Shown piece after piece: positions 30,161 through 64,000 of a stretch of DNA of 64,000 nucleotides. A program made the translations under genes and the position numbers. How positions within the stretch are numbered: position 1 is the first letter of the stretch; every line of letters begins with the position of its first letter. This DNA comes from Sphaerolaimus hirsutus. Its lineage: Eukaryota > Nematoda > Chromadorea > Monhysterida > Sphaerolaimidae. The notes beneath the pieces were generated by a model, which was not told where the DNA came from, did not search any database, and saw only the letters and a list, made by a program, of their open reading frames with translations. Where the stretch lies: contig OZ038460.1 of the NCBI GenBank assembly GCA_964036195.1, positions 1,057,504 to 1,121,503 of the forward strand. The letters are read 5' to 3'.

Positions 30161-33100
30161 GTGAGTGACGGTGGCAAACCCTCCAAAAAAAAGTATTTAA
30201 ATTTTTAAGTGTTTTTTTCCAAAATGAATTTTCGAATTTTCGAATTTTTTCAAAAAAAAATCGATTTTTAAGTGTTTTTTTCCAGTGGTGGAGTGAAAAT
30301 TCGAAAATTCCGAAAAAATTCGAAAATTCGAAAATATTTTCGAATTTTAGAATCTTTTTTGCCATCGTTACGGGTGAGTGACGGTGGCAAACGGAATTTG
30401 AAATACCGTATTTCCTCGAATGATTCCCCTGAGGGGACACTATTCTAGGGGGTAATTATTCAAGGGTGAGTTCTTATCTCGTCATAATTTTCAAGCATTT
30501 TTGTATCAACAGAGTTCATAAAATATGCTTTATAAATAACAAAACATGCGTTTTTGTTTAGATTAGGTATACACAGTATATTGATCATAAATATGCCTAA
30601 GGGGGGGGGGGGCTATTCGAAAGGGGATTATTTTCTCCTCACTCTAACACGGGAGAATTATTCAAGGGTGGATTATTCAACGGTGATTATTGAAGATAGG
30701 GGGTTATTCGAGTAAATACGGTATAAAAGTCATTTCGAAGTCATAGAAAAAGTTGATCGGTCAGTAAATAATTCCACGTGGAGCGTATTGTCTAAAAAAT
30801 GGAATTTTCTTGGAATGGAAAATTCAAAAACATTTTTTTCAAGTTTTTGCTGTTGGTGGAAAGAAATTCAATATCCGATCTAAAAACCATTGTTTGGTTT
30901 TATGCTGGTTATTTGTATGTAAAAATATTGTCCTGTTTCCATTTGAAAAAAACGCGAAAATAGGACCACTAAAACACCTTTTCAAATATATCAAATTTTA
31001 CGTCCACAATTCAAACGCAGAACCACCTAGCCAAAATGGGAGTAGCTTCCAGCGGCACGCCAAAACAGAACGTCTCCGGCTATTTCGACGCTCCAAAATC
31101 GCCCATTGCAAAAGGGGGCGGGGCCGACGGCGGCGGCTTCCCACAGGAACAATATGCGGCAAATGCGGCAGCTGCGCAGGCCTCGCCAGCCAGGTGCCAC
31201 TCACAGACCCTGTAAAATGTCCTGTAAAATGTTAAATGTCATGAAAAGTGTCTAAAGTAATGCAAAATGTGAAGTGTAATGCAAAGTTTCTAACGTCCTG
31301 TAAAATGTCCTGCAAAATGTGAAATGTCAGGCAAATTGTCTATGGTAATGTAAAATGCCCTGTGAAATGTTTAATGCCATGCAAAGTGTCTAAAGTCAAT
31401 TAAAATGCTCTGTGAAATGTAAAATGTCTGCAAAATGTCAAAAGTCATGTAAAATGTCCTGTAAAACGTCAAATGTCATGCAAAGTGTCTAAATTCATGT
31501 AAAATGGCAAACGAAGTTACAGGACGTTTGCTTTACGCCCTTCAGGCATGACATTTGCCATCGTACAGGGACATTTCACAGGGTCCGGGAGTGGCACAAG
31601 GAAGAAAAATACGTCTGACTATTTCGAGCCGCCCAAACCAAATGCACCAGGCGCACAGGCACCAGAAAAGGCACCAGCACCAGGGCCAGCCGCATCTCCA
31701 GTCGCAGCGGCAGATCTGGCAGTGTCGCCTGTCGCGCCGACGGCTCCAGCGACAGCCGCGGCTAAGGGTGGGAAGGGCAGCCGCGCGGCGGCGGCAGAAG
31801 CGCCGCGGCAGACTGGCGCCCATCCCAGACCCTGTAAAAAGCCCTGTAAAATGTCAAATGTCAAGCAAAGTGTCAAAAGTCATGGAAAATGCCCGGTAAA
31901 ATGGCAAACGTACGTTTGCCATTTTACCGGGCATTTTACGTCACTTTTGACACTTTGCTTGACATTTGACATTTTACAGGGCTTTTTACGGGGTCTGGGA
32001 GTGCCCCCTGGAGGGGAAGCGGTGACAACGCCGCCAGGTCAGTGTTATGGAAAGAGCTTATTGTATCTGCTCGAATAATTCCCCTGAGGAATGAAGTACT
32101 TTTTCGTGATAGAACATTAAACTTTAACTGAAGTTACTTTAGCGGGTTATAAATATTTACCGTATTTCCTCGAAATACCCCTCGAATTACCACCAGGTCT
32201 TAGCGAGCATACAAAAAAATAAACCCCCTTTGGGTGCTTCGGAATTGAAGAAAAGTGTCGGCTGCCGTTCTGCAGTTCGAGCTAGGGTGTTAAATTTCCG
32301 TTTCCGCTTTTCCGCAGGAAAATTTTTTACCTTTCCGTTTTCCGTTTTCCGGCAGCTGAAAATTTTTTACCTTTCCATTTTCCCCTGAGTGAAATTTTTT
32401 TACCTTTCCGTTTTCCGGCCAGTAATTTTTTTTTACCTTTCAGTTTTCCGTTTTCCGTAAAGTTAAAAATTTTTACCTTTCCGTTTTCCGTAAAAATTTT
32501 TTTTTGACACCCTAGTTCGAGCCATGAAACCATGCAAAAAGTTCACTAGGCACAGAAAATCACAGAAACTTAAGTATTCCTCCAGTAGTGGTTGATTGTG
32601 TCGTTATTCTAATAGGCAGGGTTGGTTTTATAAAAATCATTTGTATACAAATTGTATAAAAATGTATTTTATTTTTATTTTATTCTTGTTTCATTTTATT
32701 TTATTTTATTCCAAAATAATAATAAAATAATAAAATGGACCATTCTACAAAAATTTTACAGAAATTTTACAAAAAATCAGAATCTTGCATGCAAGGTCAG
32801 AAAAATGTGATAATTAGACCTAAACATGAAAAACGTGTGACAAATTTTTCCATTACTTTGCAAAAGTTGCATGCAGTAGGTATTGTGAGCTAGTTGCAAG
32901 TGTTAAGTTACAATTATCGATAAGAATGGTTTGCATTTTCAGTAGAAGGATTACTGCAGTGTGCTGGGCGCCATTGTAAAACATCATGCAAAGTGTCAAT
33001 TGTCATGACCAGGGTTGGCAAAATCTCAGAAAAGAATAAAAATAAAATAAAAATAAAATGGAAAATTGAAGAATAAAATAAAATAAAATAAAATGGAAAA

Positions 33101-36100
33101 TTTCAAAATAAAAATAAAAATTGTATAAAAATTCGAATTTTTGTAAAATTTTTGTAAAATTGTATACAAATTCATATTTTTGTAAAAATTGTATAAAAAT
33201 TCATGTTTTTTGTATAAAAAAAATTCTGTTGTTTATAGTTCAACCTGTTCATTTGTGGAGCTGGGGCAGTCCCAAGCCATGTAAAGTGTCAAAATGTCAT
33301 ATGAAATGGAATGGAAAGTGTCAATTTTCATGAAAATGGTCAGTAAAGTGTCAATTTTCATGACAAATATAAATTTAATTGGAAACTGTAAAGCTAATTG
33401 TATCCAAATCTTGTTGTTTTTGTAACCAAATCTTATGTGAACGTTTAGATACAAAAACATAAGATTTGGATACCAAAATATAAGGTTTGGATACCAAAAC
33501 ATAAGATTCAGATACACAATTTACACTCTGCACGACATTTGTCATCAATACCATATTATAAAGCCACTATTTATTTGTGTGGAAAGTATGCTCCAACGTA
33601 AACGATAGGGCGTCACTGACTCTACCCGATTCGTGTGTGTTTTTACACACAGTGAGGACACTTTTTATCGGCACAAAATGCCCTTTACAAACACGATCCC
33701 TTTACAATCTTGACAAACAGGGTTAGTAGATGGCAAAGTTGCTTCCCAAGAATGCAATTGCACATGTATAGTGGGTTGACTTGAGTTTTTAGGGGCTGAG
33801 TTTACAATTCAGGGTTGAGTTGATGGGTGTTTATAAATTAGGGTTGAGTTGACAGAAGTTTAAAAATAAGGGGCTGTTGACACAAGTTTACAAATTAGAG
33901 GATGAGTTTATGGGAGTTGAGTTGATGGGTGTTTGCCAAATTAGGGGCTGAGTTTATGGGAGTTGACAATAACATTACCATAATCCTTAAGTGAGGCCCC
34001 CGGGGCTAAAAAATATCAATTGTGATATGATGCATTTGTGGGTTACTGATTACAATGATTTGAAATATGCACTCCATTCTGACAGTACATTACCATAACC
34101 CAGAACATGAACCCCTGGGGCCAAAACTTTCAAATTGTGAAATGATGCATTGTGGGTGTCTAATTGCACTGATTTGATATATGATGCACTCCATTTTGAC
34201 ACTACATTACCATAACCCTGAAAATGAACCACTGGGGCCAAAAACTTTCAATTTGTGAAATGATGCATTTTTGGGTTTCTGATTGCACTGATTTCAAATT
34301 TGGGTTTCTGATTGCACTGATTTGATATATGCACTCCATTTTGACACTACATTACCATAACCCTAAAAATGAACCAATGGGGCCAAATACTTTCAATTTG
34401 AGAAATGATGCATTTTCAGGTTTCTGATTGCACTCATTTGAAATATGCACTTCATTTTGACACTACATTTCCATAACCCTAAAAATGAACCCCCTGGGCC
34501 AAAAACTTTCAAATCATAAAATGATGCATTTGTGGGTTTCTGATTGTAGCGATTTCAAATATGCACTCCATTCGACACTACATTACTAAAACCCTGAAAT
34601 TGAACCCCTAGACCCAAAAATTTCAAATTGTGAAATGATGCATTTTGCAAGTTTCTAATTGCACTGATTTGAAATAACTCAATTTCAACTCTACATTACT
34701 GCAAGCCTTAAATTGAACCCCTGGGGCTAATAAATTAGAAATTGTGAAATGATGCATTTGTGGCTTTTTGATTGCCTTGATTTGAAATATGCACTTCATT
34801 TTGACGCTACATTACCATAACCCTGAAAATGAACCCTAGGGCCAAAAATTTTCAAATCGTAAAATGATGTGATTGTGGGTTTCTGATTGTAGCGATTTCA
34901 AATATGCACTCCATTTTGACACCACATTACTAAAACCCTGATAATGAACCCCTGGGCCCAAAAACTTTCAATTTGTGAAAAGATGCATTTGTGGGTTTTT
35001 TATTGCAGTGATTTGAGATGTGCACTCCATTTCTACTGTACATTACCATAACCAAGTCTAACCGCTGGGGCTAAAAAATTTAAAATTGTGAATTGATGCA
35101 TTTGTGGATTGATGATAGCGATTATTTGAAATATTCATTCCATTTTGACACTACATTACCATAAACCTGAAAATGAGTTTATGGGAGTTTCCAAATTAGG
35201 GACTGAGTTTATGGGAGTTTCCAAATTAGAGGCTGAGTTTACAGGAGTTTCCAAACTAGGGCTGTGTTTACAGGATTTAGAGGGGGTCCTCATGGGGTGC
35301 CATTTTTGGGGGGTCTCTAGGGGGGGGGGGCAATTTTTGGAGGTACATATGGGGGTGCCATTTCAAGGGGGTCCCCATGGGATGCCATTTTTTGGGTGGT
35401 CCCCAGGGGTGCCATTTTTTGGTGGTCCTCAGGGGGGGTGCTATTTTTTTGTGGGGGGTCCATAGGGGGTGCCATTTTTTTTTTGGGGGGGGGGTGATCC
35501 CCAGGGGGGTGCCATTTTTGGAGAGTCCCCAGGGGGAGCCAACTTTGGGTGGGTCCCCAAGGGGGTGCCATTTTTGGGGGGTCCCTAGGGGGTGCCATTT
35601 TTGGGCAGTTCCTAGGGGGTGTCATTTTTGGGGGGTTCCCCTGGAGGTGCCATTTGGAGGGGGTCCCCACTGGGGTGTCAGTTTTTGCAAGCCTCTGAGT
35701 AGTGGGTACATCTAGCAGGATTCTCTCCAACCTTCAGTGGGGTTTTGTGGTTCTCTACAATTAATACCACAAGGATTTACAAACACAAAAAGAACAGCAA
35801 AGCACAAATGTAACCAATTTAAGATTACAACAAAGTTTGACACCTTGCATAAACCACACTATCATATCACAAAACCTATACCACACAGAATGCACACTGC
35901 ACACCATCATACCAAATCGCAAACTGTCCACATTTTACTACCGAGTTTCATGCCCAACTATTTTACAGAAGTTTACAAAAATCCATTCCAAAACATTGCA
36001 TCATTGGTATTGGTCTTGTTATTGTTGGTACATTACATACCACATTTCAAAACACATGCCTAGCATGTGGGCGAACTTAACTAAAGTATCATATTTCCTC

Positions 36101-55058: not shown

Positions 55059-55499
55059 TACCGTATTTCCTCGAAATACCCCCCGGGGGGTGATTGTTTC
55101 ATAGTGGTCCCGAGAGGGGGGGGGGGGTTAAACGAGGGGGGGGTATTATTTCACAAGAAAATTTTTGAAAACCAAGTACGAAATTGTCGTCTGAAACGTA
55201 CGCAGACGTCGAAAAATGCAACAAAAACCGCCATTTATAAGGTTCTGTAGACTAATATTAGTATGTAGATGGTATGTACACTGTTCTAACGTGACACCGA
55301 CATTGTTTTAACGTGTGTTCTGCAGTACACAGAACACAAACTGCCGTATTTGTGATGTACGTTCTCTTTACACTCAATTTGGGGGGGGGGGGGTATTTCG
55401 AGGGGGGGGTGATTGTTTCATAGTGGTCTCGAGAGGGGGGGGGGTCAAACGAGGGGGGGGGTATTTCAAGGGGGGGGGGTATTTCGAGGAAATACGGTA
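55059..55499. mobile_element. TACCGTATTTCCTCGAAATA foldback MITE
   Basis: Left TACCGTATTTCCTCGAAATA, right TATTTCGAGGAAATACGGTA, perfect 20-base arms; long C and G runs and repeats of GTATTTCGAGGGGGGG. Confidence 0.88.
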
Positions 55500-56185
55500 T
55501 TTCTGTACTTGTCAACGACAAAATCACACAGAATATTTTTAAAGAATTTTTTTATTCTGTTGTTATGGTTAAAAACCTTTGGTCCGTGAATTTGAAAATG
55601 AATTTACTTTTAATTGTCAAAGCACACTCTTATTGGGTTTTCAAAACTGGGATAAAAATGTATATATGGTAGGTAGATTGAAATGTAATTAGGTAGGTAT
55701 ATATATGTAAAAGTGCAGGGAAGTAGGAAATATTGTACCATAGGTACAGCTGTATTTAATGTTTGTATTAAGCATTCCATGACCAAAATACAGCACGATG
55801 CATACATATTATGTTGATTACATAAGTACTAACATTCTAACAAATCAAATTCAATCAAAATATCGTTGATGATCTTATGTTAACTTATATCTTATGTAGA
55901 AAAATATCTTTGATTAAGTGCCAATATCTGTTTCATGAAAATATCACTTTTTACACGAAAAAATCCCTAAAAAGGCAAGTAAGCCATCAGAATGTGAGAA
56001 AAAGTTAATGCCGAAATCTCAAAAAGAAACGATGGCAAAATGTGAGCATGTAGTAACCGATTAAAAGCGTTAAAACGTTATAAATACTTACGTTAACGTC
56101 TGCCAACTGCGTGGAAAAGTTAAGCCATTGATGAATGACATAGACATTCTATGCAGAGTGGACAGATTCTCGACTCGGTAAATAG
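55500..56185. other. Intergenic, downstream of the cyclase gene; nothing seen
   Basis: AT-rich, with TATATA-type runs but no coding frame or identified element. Confidence 0.35.
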
Positions 56186-56910: not shown

Positions 56911-57061
56911 TCACCACCAGGCGCCAGCACCAAAAAGCACCAAAATCACCATAGCGAGCCAGCGGCTGGTGCCAGCACCAATCCCTGGTGCCCCATTGTG
57001 TTGCACCACAACTCTGGGTCTTCTACATTGAGTGTCTTCTTTTCCACCGAATGCAACGATT
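56911..57061 (-). CDS. Cyclase-family last exon with hydrophobic C-terminus
   Basis: Acceptor CTGCCCCTAG|A lies directly at the other end of the foldback element. It encodes IVAFGGKEDTQCRRPRVVVQ and ends in a hydrophobic run before TGA (56911-56913). The first four residues complete the family motif GGPxRI; the rest has no counterpart I know. Confidence 0.7.
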
Positions 57062-58614
57062 CTAGGGGCAGTCCCAAACCCTGTAAAATGTCCTGTGAAA
57101 TGTCAAATGTCGTTCAAAGTGTATTAAGTCATCGAAATGCCCTGTAAAATGTCAAATGTCATGCAAAGTGTCTAAAGTCATGGAAAATGCCCTGGAAAGT
57201 ACCAAACTTCATTTGCTATTTGCAGACGAGTTTGTCATTTTCCAAGGCATTTTACACGACTTTAGACACTTTGCATGACATTTGACATTTTGCAGGGTAT
57301 TTTACATAACTTTTGACACTTTGCATGACATTTGACATTTTACAGTGCATTTTACAGGGTCTGGGAGTGGCACCTGGCCGGTCCCCCGCTGCCGCCCTTG
57401 ATTTTCATGGGCATGATTATTATGGTGGCTCCGCGTGGCTCCAATTTGTCCAGATTCATAATGTTTTCAATACCGGGAATGCTGTGCGCTGACAGAATCT
57501 GAAAATGTTCAAGCGGTATTTAAAAAATTTTTACTTGGTTTCGTGTGACGACTAGGATGTCAACTTGACATTTTATGTTTCCGCATTTCGAAGGCAAATT
57601 TTTTTCAGTTTCTACAGATTTACGGCCACTAAATTTCGTTACCCATTCCCATTTTTCTGACTCATTTTAAAGCTAAATTAAAGGTTTTTCATTTTGCACC
57701 TAAACTTTCTGTTTTTGTTTCCTGTGAAAATGAGAAAAAAGATACATAGTGAAATAGAGCGATTTTGAAAAAAATAGGGAAATTTTTTTTTCTCAATATT
57801 CACTAAAAAAACCCCGCAACCCCCTACAAAACCCCTCGTTCCGTATAAGTACTATTGTGCAGTCAATAGACTGTTCCCATTTGGCCCACATACACTAGTT
57901 TACATCGCGAATTCGTGTCAACTAAATGTCAACTAAAATACACAAAAAAATTCAAATCATCACGCTAGAAATAAAACAGCGAAAATAAACTGTCACTATA
58001 TAAAGTTTAGTTGAATTCAGTTGACACGAATTTTGTCAACTAGTGTCTGGGCCCAATGGCGGCCCAACCACTAGTTGACACATGTGTTTCAACTGGGGCC
58101 ACTCCCAGACCCTATAAAAAGCCTTGTAAAGTGTCAAATGTAATGCAAAGTTTCAAAATTCAGGGAAAATGCCCTGCAAAATGGCAACTCGGTTGCCATT
58201 TTGCAGGGCAATTTCCATGACTTGTGACACTTTGCATGACATTTGACATTTTACAGAGCTTTTTACAGGGTCTGGGAGTGGCACCAGGTCTGTGTCAAGT
58301 CAAGCTTCACGTGTCACAGAGGGATCTTTCAATGCACTTGTCACAACATTTCTTTTCAACATCGCTGCATGTGCATTTTGAGGTCGCTGTGATACACGTG
58401 AAGCTGAAATCTGAGTTGACACAGACCAGTTGGCACACGTGTGTCAACTAGTGTGTGCGGGCCCAATGCCACACAAATCAGCAAATTCGCAATTCACAAA
58501 CCACATGAGTTTTGAAGTCCTTCGTTTGTCCCGCATCTGTCGACGGTGTATCCAGCCCAACTGCTTTTATGCGTCGTTCAGTGACCAGCCATTTTGTCGC
58601 CTCCCAATGGAAGC
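56911..58614 (-). CDS. Cyclase-family metal-dependent hydrolase (kynurenine formamidase / isatin hydrolase type), last three exons
   Basis: Exons 58502-58614, 57374-57498 and 56911-57061; phases 0 and 2 agree, entry phase is 1. The product reads FHWEATKWLVTERRIKAVGL, then DTPSTDAGQTKDF, GIENIMNLDKLEPRGATIII and MPMKIKGGSGGPARIVAF. This is the C-terminal half of the Pfam Cyclase fold, whose members hydrolyse cyclic or N-formyl amides with a bound metal; the metal-binding N-terminal half (HxGTHxDxPxH) was not found and should lie to the right. After the family's usual end there are ~40 extra residues ending in a hydrophobic run (WLAMVILVLFGAGAWW-stop), suggesting a C-terminal membrane or GPI-type tail; part of this tail is GCGCC/GGTGC-rich and may be MITE-derived. 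The last intron is a complete foldback element. Confidence 0.85.
57062..57373 (-). mobile_element. Foldback MITE forming the last intron of the cyclase gene (introner-like)
   Basis: A 312-bp inverted-repeat element. In gene orientation it begins GTGCCACTCCCAGACCCTGT at the donor and ends with the imperfect complement ACAGGGTTTGGGACTGCCCC, followed only by TAG. Interior arms are repeats of TGTAAAATGTC and GACATTTTACA. Intron and element coincide to 0 bases on the donor side and 3 on the acceptor side. Confidence 0.85.
57374..57498 (-). CDS. Cyclase-family exon, penultimate
   Basis: Acceptor GAACATTTTCAG. It encodes ILSAHSIPGIENIMNLDKL, then GATIIIMPMKIKGGSGGPA, the most conserved stretch of the C-terminal half. 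The donor GCCAG|GTGCCACTCCC is the very end of a foldback element. Confidence 0.88.
58088..58288. mobile_element. Foldback MITE, CCACTCCCAGACCCT family, in a cyclase intron
   Basis: Left arm GGGGCCACTCCCAGACCCTA, right arm ACAGGGTCTGGGAGTGGCACC; the centre is a palindrome around AACTCGGTTGCC. It lies inside the penultimate cyclase intron (57499-58501), nested in a GTTGACAC-type foldback. Confidence 0.75.
58502..58614 (-). CDS. Cyclase-family exon (antepenultimate base of known part)
   Basis: Acceptor GGTATTTAG and donor CATGTG|GTTTGT. It encodes FHWEATKWLVTERRIKAVGL and DTPSTDAGQTKDFKTHV, the conserved G-x-DTPSTD-x-GQ segment of the family. The upstream exon must end in phase 1. Confidence 0.85.
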
Positions 58615-59047: not shown

Positions 59048-59333
59048 TACCGTATTTCCTCGAATTATCCCCCGGGGGTTTATTTTTTCAGAGTGACAAT
59101 TTTGAAAGAAAAACGTGAAAAATGCAACAATAACCACCATTTAAAAGTTTTTACAGCCTTATATAAGGATGTAGATGGTATAAACGATGTTCTAACGTAA
59201 CACAGTAAGTGTTTTGAACGTCTGTTATGCATTTCCCGGACCACAAACTCATAGTGCCCATTTTGAGGGGGGTATTTCGAGGGGGGGGGGGGTGTATTTC
59301 GAGGGGGGGGGGGTATTTCGAGGAAATGCGGTA
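59048..59333. mobile_element. TACCGTATTTCCTCGAATTA foldback MITE
   Basis: Left TACCGTATTTCCTCGAATTA, right GTATTTCGAGGAAATGCGGTA in part. It lies one base after the TACTCGGCGG element. Confidence 0.8.
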
Positions 59334-60127: not shown

Positions 60128-63100
60128 GCCCGATTCGTGTGTGTTTTTGCACACAATGCAGTCACTATTTATTAGTACAAATGCCCTTTACAAACACGAT
60201 CCACAATCTTGACAAACAGGGTTAGTAGATGGCAAAGTTGCTTCCCAAGAATGCAATTGCAGATGTATAGGGGGTTGACTTGAGTTTTTAGGGGCTGAGT
60301 TTACAATTCAGGGTTGAGTTGATGGGTGTTGATAAATTAGGGTTGAGTTGACAGAAGTTTAAAGATAAGGGGCTGTTGACACAAGTTTAAAAATTAGAGG
60401 CTGAGTTTATGGGAGTTGAGTTGATGGGTGTTTGCCAAATTAGGGGCTGAGTTTATGGGAGTTAACAATAACATTACCATAATCCTTAAGTGAGGCCCCC
60501 GGGGCTAAAAAATATAAATTGTGATATAATGCATTTGTGGGTTACTGATTACAATGATTTGAAATATGCACTCCATTCTGACAGTACATTACGATAACCC
60601 TGAAATTGAACCCAAAATGGGGCCAAAATTTTCAAATTGTGAAATGATGCATTGTGGGTTTCTAATTGCACTGATTTGATATATAATGCACTCCATTTTG
60701 ACACTACATTACCATAACCCTGAAAATGAACCACTGGGGCCAAAAACTTTCAATTTGTGAAATGATGCATTTTTGGGTTTCTGGTTGCACTTATTTCAAA
60801 TTTAGGTTTCTGATTGCACTGATTTGATATATGCGCTCCATTGACACTACATTACCATAACCCGAAAAATGAACCCATGGGGCCAAATACTTTCAATTTG
60901 AGAAATGATGCATTTTCAGGTTTCTGATTGCACTCATTTGAAATATGCACTTCATTTTGACACTACATTACCATAACCCTGAAAATGAACCACTGGGGCC
61001 AAAAAATTTCAATTTGTGAAATGATGCATTTTTGGGTTTCTGATTGCACTGATTTCAAATTTGGGTTTCTGATTGCACTGATTTGATATATGCACTCCAT
61101 TTTGACACTACATTACCCTAACCCTCAAAATGGACCCATGGGGTTAAATACTTTCAATTTGAGAAATGATGCATTTTCGGGTTTCTGATTGCACTCATCT
61201 GAAATATGCACTTCATTTTGACACTACATTACCATAACCCTAAAATGAACCCCCTGGGCCAAAAACTTTCAAATCATAAAATGATGGATTTGTGAGTTTC
61301 TGAGTGTAGTGATTTCAAATATGCCCAGGGCTTAAAAAATTAGAAATTGTGAAATGATTCAATGTGGGTTTCTAATTGCACTGATTTGAAATATGCACTC
61401 CGTTTTGACACTACATAACCCTGAAAACTACATAACCATAACCCTGAAAATGAACCTCTGGAGCCAAAAACTTTCAATTTGTGAAATCATTCATTTTTGG
61501 GTTTCTGATTGCACTGATTTCAAATTTGGGTCTATGATTGCACCAATTTGATATATGCACTCCATTTTGACACTACATTACCATAACCCAAAAAATGAAC
61601 CCATGGTGCCAAATACTTTCAATTTGAGAAATGATGCATTTTCGGGTTTCTGATAGCACTCATTTGAAATATGCACTTCATTTTGACACTACATTACCAT
61701 AACCCTAAAAATGAACCCCCTGGGCCAAAAACTTTCAAACCATAAAATGATGGATTTGTGGGTTTCAGAGTGTAGCTATTTCAAATATGCCCAGGGCTTA
61801 AAAAATTAGAAATTGTGAAATGATTCGATGTGGGTTTCTAATTGCACTGATTTGAAATATGCAATCCATTTTGACACTACATAACCCTGAAAACTACATA
61901 ACCATCACCCTGAAAATGAACCTCTGGAGCCAAAAACTTTCAATTTGTGAAATCATTCATTTTCAGGTTTCTGATTGCACTCATTTGAAATATGCACTTC
62001 ATTTTGACACTACATTACCATAACCATAAAAATGAACCCCCTAAGCCAAAAACTTTCAAATCATAAAATGATGCATTTGTGGGTTTCTGATTGTAGCAAT
62101 TTCAAATATGCACTCCATTTTGACACTACATTACTAAAACTCTGAAATTGAACCCCTAGACCCAAAAATTTCTAATTGTAAAATGATGCATTTTGCAGGT
62201 TTCTTATTGCACTGATTTGAAATGACTCAATTTCAACTCTACATTACTGTAAGCCTTAAATTGAACCCATGGGGCTAATAAATTAGAAATTGTGAAATGA
62301 TGCATTTGTGGCTTTTTGATTGCCTTGATTTGAAATATGCACTTCATTTTGACACTACATTACCATAACCCTGAAAATGAACCCCCAGGGCCAAAAATTT
62401 TCAAATCATAAAATGATGTGTTTGTGGGTTTCTGATTGTAGCGATTTCAAATATGCACTCCATTTTGACACCACATTACTAAAACCCTGATAATGAACCC
62501 CTGGGCACAAAAACTTTCAATTTGTGAAATGATGCGTTTGTGGGTTTTTTATTGCAGTGATTTGAGATGTGCACTTCATTTCTACTCTACATTACCATAA
62601 CCTTTTAAGTCTAACCCTTGGGGCTAAAAAATTGAAAATTGTGAATTGATGCATTTGTGGATTGATGATAGTGATTTTTTGAAATATTCATACCATTTTC
62701 ACACTACATTACCATAAACCTGAAAATGAGTTTATGGGAGTTTCCAAATTAGGGGCTGAGTTTATGGGAGTTTCCAAATTAGGGGCTGATTTTAAGGGAG
62801 TTTCCAAATTAGGGGCTGAGTTTATGGGAGTTTCTAAATTAGGGGCTGAGTTTATTGGAGTATCCAAATTAGGGCTGAGTTTACAGCAGTTTCCAAATTA
62901 TGGGTTGAGTTTACAGGAGTTTCCAAAATTGGGGGCTGAGTTTATGGGAGTTTTCAAATTAGAGGCTGAGTTTATGGGAGCTTACAAATAAGTGGCTGAG
63001 TTTATGGGAGTTTGCAAGTTAGGGGCTGAGTTTACGAGAGTTTGCAAGTTAGGGGCTGGGTTTATAGGAGTTTCCAAATTAGGGGCTGAGTTTACAGGAG

Positions 63101-64000
63101 TTTCCAAACTAGGGGCTGTGTTTACAGGATTTAGAGGGGGTCCCCATGGGGTGCCATTTTTGGGGGGTCTCCAGGGGGTGCCATTTTCTGGAGGTACATA
63201 TGGGGGTGCCATTTCAAGGGGGTGCCATTTTCTGGAGGTACATATGGGGGTGCCATTTCAAGGGGGTCCACATAGGGTGCCATTTTTTGGGTGGTCCCCA
63301 GGGGTGCCATTTTTTGGTGGTCCTCAGGGGGGTGCTATATTTTTTTTTGCAGGGGGGTCCTAAGGGGGTGCCATTTTGGGGTGGTCCCCAGGGGGTGCCA
63401 TTTTTGGAGAGTCCCCAGGGGGAGCCAACTTTGGGTGGGTCCCCAGGGGGTGCCATTTTTGTGGGGGTTCCTAGGGGGTGCCATGTTTGTGGGGTCCCCA
63501 GGGGGTGCTATTTTGGGGGGTCCCAAGGGGGTGCCATTTTTGGGGGGTCCCTAAGGGGTGCCATTTTTCGGTGGTCCTCAGGGGGTGCCATATTTGTGGG
63601 GCCCTAGGGGGTCTCATTTTTGGGCGGTTCCCAGGGGGTGCCACTTTTGGGGGGTTCCCCGGGGGGTGCCATTTGGAGGGGGGTCCCCATTGGGGTGTCA
63701 GTTTTTGCAAGCCTCTGAGTAGTGGGTACCTATAGCAGGATTCTCTCCAACCTTCAGTTGGGTTTTGTGGTTCTCTACAATTAATACCACAAGGATTTAC
63801 AAACACAAAAAGAACAGCAAAGCACAAATGTAACCAATTGAAGATTACAACAAAGTTTGACACCTTGCAAAAACCACACTATCATATCACAAAACCTATA
63901 CCACACAGAATGCACACTGCACACCATCATACCAAATCGCAAACTGTCCACATTTTACTACCGAGTTTCATGCCCAACCATTTTACAGTTAACAGTTTTA
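60128..64000. repeat. Second copy of the satellite-bearing unit (copy B), cut by the window edge
   Basis: It begins CCCGATTCGTGTGTGTTTTT like copy A (33628) and follows it closely: GGGTTAGTAGATGGCAAAGT, satellite 60470-62720 (about eighteen monomers, twice copy A), the GAGTTTATGGGAG minisatellite 62720-63125, the GGGGGTGCCATTTTT minisatellite 63130-63700, then the CTAT(A)GCAGGATTCTCTCC segment. It lies in direct orientation to copy A, 26.5 kb away. Confidence 0.88.

Follow-up and report, generated by a model that had tools for sequence, protein, structure and literature searches.

Introners are a leading explanation for massive intron gain. The survey of Gozashti et al. (2022) describes them in Micromonas, Aureococcus, dinoflagellates and others; a family there has between 5 and more than 2,000 copies in a given genome (PMC9860276). 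According to the part of this survey considered here, only two groups are concerned among animals and land plants, both of them animals, and introners with splice sites partly taken from target duplications are already known (PMC9860276). In Amoebophrya, hairpin introners with non-canonical ends have been described (PMC7789003). Among DNA transposons, NuwaI (PIF/Harbinger-related, PHIS) duplicates a CWG target, has terminal inverted repeats (TIR) that usually start with GGG and, in the sections of the source used here, is reported from animals only (PMC4482050). The human TG 3' splice sites, in the portion of the study consulted, are reported never to act as the sole site: each competes with an AG no more than 28 nt away (PMC2374985). 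Non-canonical splicing is also described in tunicates (PMC13326754). No introner of the GT-TG type was found in our literature search, in which subscription journals were thinly covered.

We analysed a 64-kb stretch of DNA (hereafter the window) in which the conserved motif of a cyclase gene, GGSGGPA/RIVAF, is split by a putative intron of 312 nt (Table 1). Read directly on the minus strand, the order is CCGGCCAG/GTGCCACTCCCAGACCCTG...GGGTTTGGGACTGCCCCTAG/AATCGTTGC, where slashes mark the intron borders. A previous sequence-only reading had taken all 312 bp for a single inverted-repeat element; the length holds for the intron, but the element itself is 309 bp long and the last 3 nt are a copy of the target. 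Once joined, the reading frame runs as GGSGGPARIVAFGG through to a TGA stop, and the joined protein aligns with isatin hydrolase structures without a gap through the junction (GGSGGPARI, E 2e-7), in agreement with the earlier proposal that removing the element restores the C-terminus of the cyclase in phase. The short joined fragment had no Pfam match at E <= 0.01, and no upstream exons of this gene were found within the 64-kb window. The cyclase was then compared with its paralogues in the same genome, at the three loci where the corresponding exon was located: C2 (L031/L035), C13 (L034) and C13 (L036). At all three, the exon is uninterrupted at the intron position and reads through as GGSGGPVRIVAFG, LSGGPVRAVVYG and LSGGPVRAVAYG, respectively. 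The remaining cyclase Pfam matches (L032, L033, L037 and L038) correspond to other exons and have no bearing on the intron position. These three loci point to an insertion into a formerly uninterrupted exon, as the sequence-only reading had supposed; in genes other than the cyclase, the uninterrupted exon before insertion would be deduced by homology only.

Table 1. Positions of the cyclase exons, the putative intron and the element copies in the window
Feature	Positions	Strand	Basis or remark
Putative intron GT...AG, 312 nt (309-bp element + 3-bp target copy)	57062..57373	-	Sequence, and join restoring an isatin-hydrolase-like C-terminus
Fold-back element, 309 bp; donor-type end GTGCCACTCCCAGACCCTG at 57373, acceptor-type end GGGTTTGGGACTGCCCC at 57065	57065..57373	-	
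5' target-site copy CAG, exonic	57374..57376	-	Sequence; family-wide CWG duplication
3' target-site copy TAG, intronic, putative source of the acceptor AG	57062..57064	-	Sequence; family comparison
Upstream cyclase coding exon, ILSAHSIPGIENIMNLDKLEPRGATIIIMPMKIKGGSGGPA + AG	57374..57498	-	Translation; tblastn to three paralogous loci; TTTTCAG acceptor ahead
Last cyclase coding exon, RIVAFGG...GAGAWW + TGA stop	56911..57061	-	Translation
Second copy, 189 bp, CTG/CAG	58096..58284	-	Repeat-rich DNA upstream of the cyclase exon; no coding signal found
Third copy, 404 bp, CAG/AAG	31194..31597	+	Adjoins GC-rich open frames
Fourth copy, 192 bp, CTG/CTG, GC start in place of GT	31816..32007	+	

Inverted repeats run throughout the 309-bp element, and the RNA of the intron (transcript strand) is predicted to fold as one long hairpin, with a free energy of -180.7 kcal/mol vs. 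-68.3 +/- 5.3 for 100 shuffled sequences (z = -21). In the two copies that were folded, the hairpin has unpaired ends, of about 4 nt on the 5' side and 7 nt on the 3' side. The stem contains an internal donor-like site, CT/GTAAAATG, and an internal acceptor-like site, TTTTACAG. The hairpin would presumably bring the true splice sites together and conceal these false internal ones.

The element belongs to a large family. Its end motif occurs 9 times in the window with up to 3 mismatches, vs. 0.01 expected. Across the 348-Mb genome, the donor-type end GGTGCCANTCCCAGACCCTGTAAAATG gave 4,750 matches with at most 1 mismatch (a count of ends, not of introns), and the reversed control gave 0. The earlier introner-like reading is supported by other copies that also interrupt coding sequence precisely, their removal restoring the frame. 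The ends of the family are donor-like GTGCCA.TCCC on one side and GGGACTGCCCC on the other; the acceptor-type end mostly reads GGGGCA or GGGCCA and the donor-type end GTGCCA. From 88 fetched loci and the window, we obtained 85 two-ended copies, of which 78 were unique once duplicated loci were dropped. GT comes first in 75 of these 78, a share that results in part from the GT-containing pattern used for fetching, most incidental copies still displaying the GT/GG asymmetry. The element is flanked by target copies that are mostly a 3-bp CWG duplication, preceded by C in 60% of cases and followed by G in 56%, which together with the terminal inverted repeats corresponds to a DNA-transposon type. 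In the 75 GT-first copies, the donor-side target is CAG (35), CTG (32), CCG (4), ATG (2) or TAG (2). The pairs of targets (donor side/acceptor side) of the 78 unique copies are CAG/CAG (22), CTG/CTG (20), CTG/CAG (9), CAG/CTG (0) and other (27), several of the latter having an AG displaced by one or a few bases. One copy (L075) shows the opposite target change, with TAG on the left and CTG on the right, and another (L028) has the pair CAG/ATG. The duplicated target, given earlier as CAG/TAG for the cyclase, is CWG (CAG or CTG) across the family. The proposal that the element itself brings the GT and the target duplication the AG fits an arrangement that recurs in the family, but many copies sit at CTG, which supplies no AG.

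Several other repeats were observed. The third and fourth copies, 218 bp apart (31194-32007, plus strand), are separated by a GC-rich open segment (KKNTSDYFEPPK...) and could be two introns of one gene. Tandem arrays made of the element's internal unit occur at G000:C4:2761085-2761665 and C3:26605921-26606477, with periods of about 100 and 114 bp. The window also holds two related composite satellite blocks with the same layout (34002-35733 and 60298-63707), consisting of units of about 116 bp, then 30-bp units, then GGGGTGCCATTTTT units. At 55082-55510 and 59050-59330, a repeated motif, CCGTATTTCCTCGAA, occurs in both orientations ahead of long runs of C or G.

We then considered the coding context of the other copies. 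For each join, the element and one target copy were deleted, and open segments across the junction were searched for. Such segments were found in 70 copies in sense and in 70 copies in antisense, so that an open frame across the junction proves nothing alone. Among the 70 sense copies, 40 were submitted to Pfam, i.e. 30 chosen by eye (three sets of 10) and 10 further ones. In the first set, 4 of the 10 fragments gave a match that crossed the junction (ZIP, OSCP1, CBS of AMPK-gamma, and chondroitin synthase), all with a donor-side CTG and an acceptor end without AG; the CTG/CTG joins concern OSCP1 (4e-17), chondroitin synthase (6e-15) and ZIP (6e-7, below the curated cut-off). Against solved structures, the AMPK-gamma join (L072, slipped CTG site) gave a gap-free alignment of 73 residues (1.3e-34), and the chondroitin synthase join of the CTG/CTG type matched at 6.5e-8. 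The second set gave 3 junction-crossing matches out of 10, all with CTG/CAG (Patched, 3e-20; chondroitin synthase, 2e-14; 7tm_2, 5e-9), as well as a weak zinc-finger match crossing the junction (0.002); a nec1 match at 0.006 was regarded as due to chance. The third set gave 4 out of 10, namely RTC insert, OSCP1, a C2H2 zinc finger and a bicarbonate transporter, with an LRR match lying beside the junction and not through it; the CAG-site joins reached 3e-19 for OSCP1 and 1e-37 for the bicarbonate transporter. Pfam matched none of the 10 further sense fragments and none of 10 antisense control fragments, so that this control is weak. The AMPK-gamma similarity, together with families such as chondroitin synthase and 7tm_2, suggests an animal-like genome. 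Because the 10 further sense fragments gave nothing and the others were chosen by eye, these figures do not fix the share of copies that lie within exons. Two genes each carry two copies of the element (L052 and L064): OSCP1 (CAG/CAG and CTG/CTG) and chondroitin synthase (CTG/CAG and CTG/CTG).

The reading frame was also tested by codon usage, each copy being held out and the counts being made on non-training copies. The codon score was higher in sense than in antisense in 39 out of 55 of these copies. With both flanks scoring above 2, exact removal of the element and one target copy fits 8 out of 10 copies, and the two exceptions (L022 and L072), whose acceptors are shifted by +1 and -1 base respectively, agree once the slipped acceptor is used; the test is weak at other limits (10/20 at a score above 0 and 3/5 above 4). 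Mean GC peaks beside the element and drops within about 100-300 nt. Both flanks exceed 50% GC in 23 of the 38 unique two-ended copies of C1, vs. 8-11% of the background. Homology and frame together suggest that the ends of many similar copies lie at exon-intron borders.

The CTG class was unexpected. The CTG/CTG pair characterizes 20 of the 78 unique copies, some of them in conserved genes, and exact removal from such a target would need GT...TG (or a register without any GT). The acceptor-side copy differs from the donor side by a CTG to CAG change in 9 copies, the reverse being found in 0 out of 78. In the sample, a CTG on the donor side is associated with an AG on the acceptor side in 10 out of 32 copies, vs. 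2 out of 35 for CAG with TG (p 0.0096). Genome-wide, CAG and CTG number 1161 and 978 at the donor end, vs. 945 and 645 at the acceptor end (p 0.002), a small excess of acceptor-side CAG (from 54.3% to 59.4%). An excess of AG on this side is predicted by selection for an AG acceptor, because the acceptor-side copy would lie within the intron, where changes are unconstrained. For the 19 GT-first CTG/CTG copies, we measured how far upstream of the exon the closest AG stands: 19 nt in 12 copies, 9 nt in 5, 17 nt in 1 and 29 nt in 1; its use would keep the frame and add three residues at 9 nt, and would shift the frame at 17, 19 and 29 nt. The use of both internal sites, CT/GTAAAATG and TTTTACAG, was disfavoured by arithmetic (37 nt added, frame shifted), as was that of the GT end with TTTTACAG (19 nt added, frame shifted), assuming 16 nt after TTTTACAG plus the 3-nt target copy. 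This argument fails for the AMPK-gamma copy, slipped by one base, where TTTTACAG is in frame at 18 nt from the exon start, and for the five CTG/CTG copies (out of 19) whose AG is at 9 nt. We also considered that CTG/CTG copies might be a younger class, which was not retained: by arm identity, they could be distinguished neither from CTG/NAG copies (p 1.0) nor from CAG/CAG copies (p 0.33), which speaks against a simple order in time and leaves the proposed succession of changes undated.

Taken together, the element is very probably an introner, i.e. a fold-back DNA transposon, non-autonomous, whose insertion into a coding exon produces an intron. It is very improbable that it entered a pre-existing intron, which it would happen to fill up to the splice sites without creating any intron. 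At least one other copy (58096-58284) does lie in DNA without coding flanks, but the target copies stand directly at the exon boundaries and the same exact fit is found in unrelated conserved genes. For the cyclase, this scenario was rejected on the three paralogous loci with this exon, which have no intron at this position. Excision guided by the hairpin and not by the spliceosome, as suggested for the introners of Amoebophrya and for the non-conventional introns of euglenids, is unlikely. The long hairpin at the ends of the element, and an exact removal that fits CAG and CTG targets alike, would be compatible with it; GT comes first in nearly all unique copies (partly an effect of the search pattern) and the acceptor-side changes favour AG, as would be expected of the spliceosome. 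Amoebophrya also offers a similar anatomy with non-canonical ends, in the part of that work considered (PMC7789003).

For the CTG class, there is nearly an even chance that the CTG/CTG copies are not spliced as GT...TG at all, being young or damaging insertions (polymorphic or failing alleles) or users of a nearby AG. The human TG sites, never sole in the material cited (PMC2374985), argue in this direction, as do the 5 copies with an in-frame AG at 9 nt, the AMPK-gamma copy, in which use of TTTTACAG would add six residues in frame, and the in-frame AGs inside the downstream exons, at 18 nt in those of OSCP1, chondroitin synthase and AMPK-gamma and at 12 nt in that of ZIP. Against this reading stand CTG-left ends almost as frequent as CAG-left ends (978 vs. 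1161), and an arm identity that does not differ detectably from that of the CTG/NAG and CAG/CAG classes. In 12 out of 19 copies, including those of OSCP1, chondroitin synthase and ZIP, the nearest upstream AG is 19 nt away and shifts the frame; splicing to a downstream AG would remove conserved residues, and any residues added would break into conserved sequence. We regard as a tentative possibility, somewhat short of an even chance, that hundreds of transposon-made introns end in TG without AG and are removed with precision because the hairpin presents their ends to each other, selection later turning the TG of the intronic target copy into AG. If this is true, TG-ending introns would represent intron birth before a canonical acceptor, and improvement after acquiring one. 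The AG found 19 nt upstream in 12 out of 19 CTG/CTG copies is within the human 28-nt limit, which makes a two-step route testable.

Under the introner reading, insertion, often at a C-CWG-G site, would duplicate CWG, and the intron would open with the GT that starts one end of the element and close with the final G of the downstream CWG copy. With these bounds, excision would restore the uninterrupted exon exactly. CAG targets, whose anatomy is read directly, would give a GT-AG intron; CTG targets would give GT...TG, presumably tolerated but poor, and improved over time by a CTG to CAG change in the downstream intronic copy. The element may derive from a NuwaI-like PHIS transposon, in which a GGG to GTG change at one end would have supplied the donor GT. 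At least 163 DDE_Tnp_4 transposase matches were found in the genome; no matching TIR was seen around DDE_Tnp_4 in the one 2.8-kb stretch read, and no transposase was tied to the element. Among the Harbinger-like transposase matches listed, many have near-equal scores and share four common TGA codons in the matched span, as if each held the same intron.

The family appears to be a large case of introns born from mobile DNA, the removal of the element from RNA being deduced from the sequence; we infer that this removal is spliceosomal and, with most reserve, that TG is used. With its thousands of copies, its simple target rule (CAG or CTG) and its paired target copies, it is a natural experiment on intron birth, and with RNA-seq it could serve to measure the worth of an AG acceptor, to see whether TG can act alone as acceptor, and to follow the improvement of new introns by selection.

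Compared with the introners of the survey, in the part considered, the family shares repeated DNA-transposon-like elements whose ends would be the splice sites, a target duplication that would give one of them, and an mRNA length usually unchanged; it differs by its 3-bp CWG duplication, its complete fold-back hairpin and its large CTG class without terminal AG (PMC9860276). With NuwaI, as described in the sections used, it has in common the CWG target duplication; the GGG start usual in NuwaI TIRs is matched here mostly at the acceptor-type end, the other end starting GTG, and the element has an internal fold-back of 19/31/50-bp units (PMC4482050). As in the excerpted account of Amoebophrya, inverted repeats lie at the intron ends, short direct repeats (3-5 nt there) at the exon borders, and a hairpin is predicted; the splice ends of the Amoebophrya introners are highly variable, whereas the putative introns here start with GT and end in AG or TG (PMC7789003). 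Finally, as at the human TG sites, TG would replace AG at the end of a GT intron; unlike those sites, so far as the material cited describes them, TG here would be the end that restores the conserved protein, although most CTG/CTG copies (12/19) have an AG 19 nt upstream (PMC2374985).
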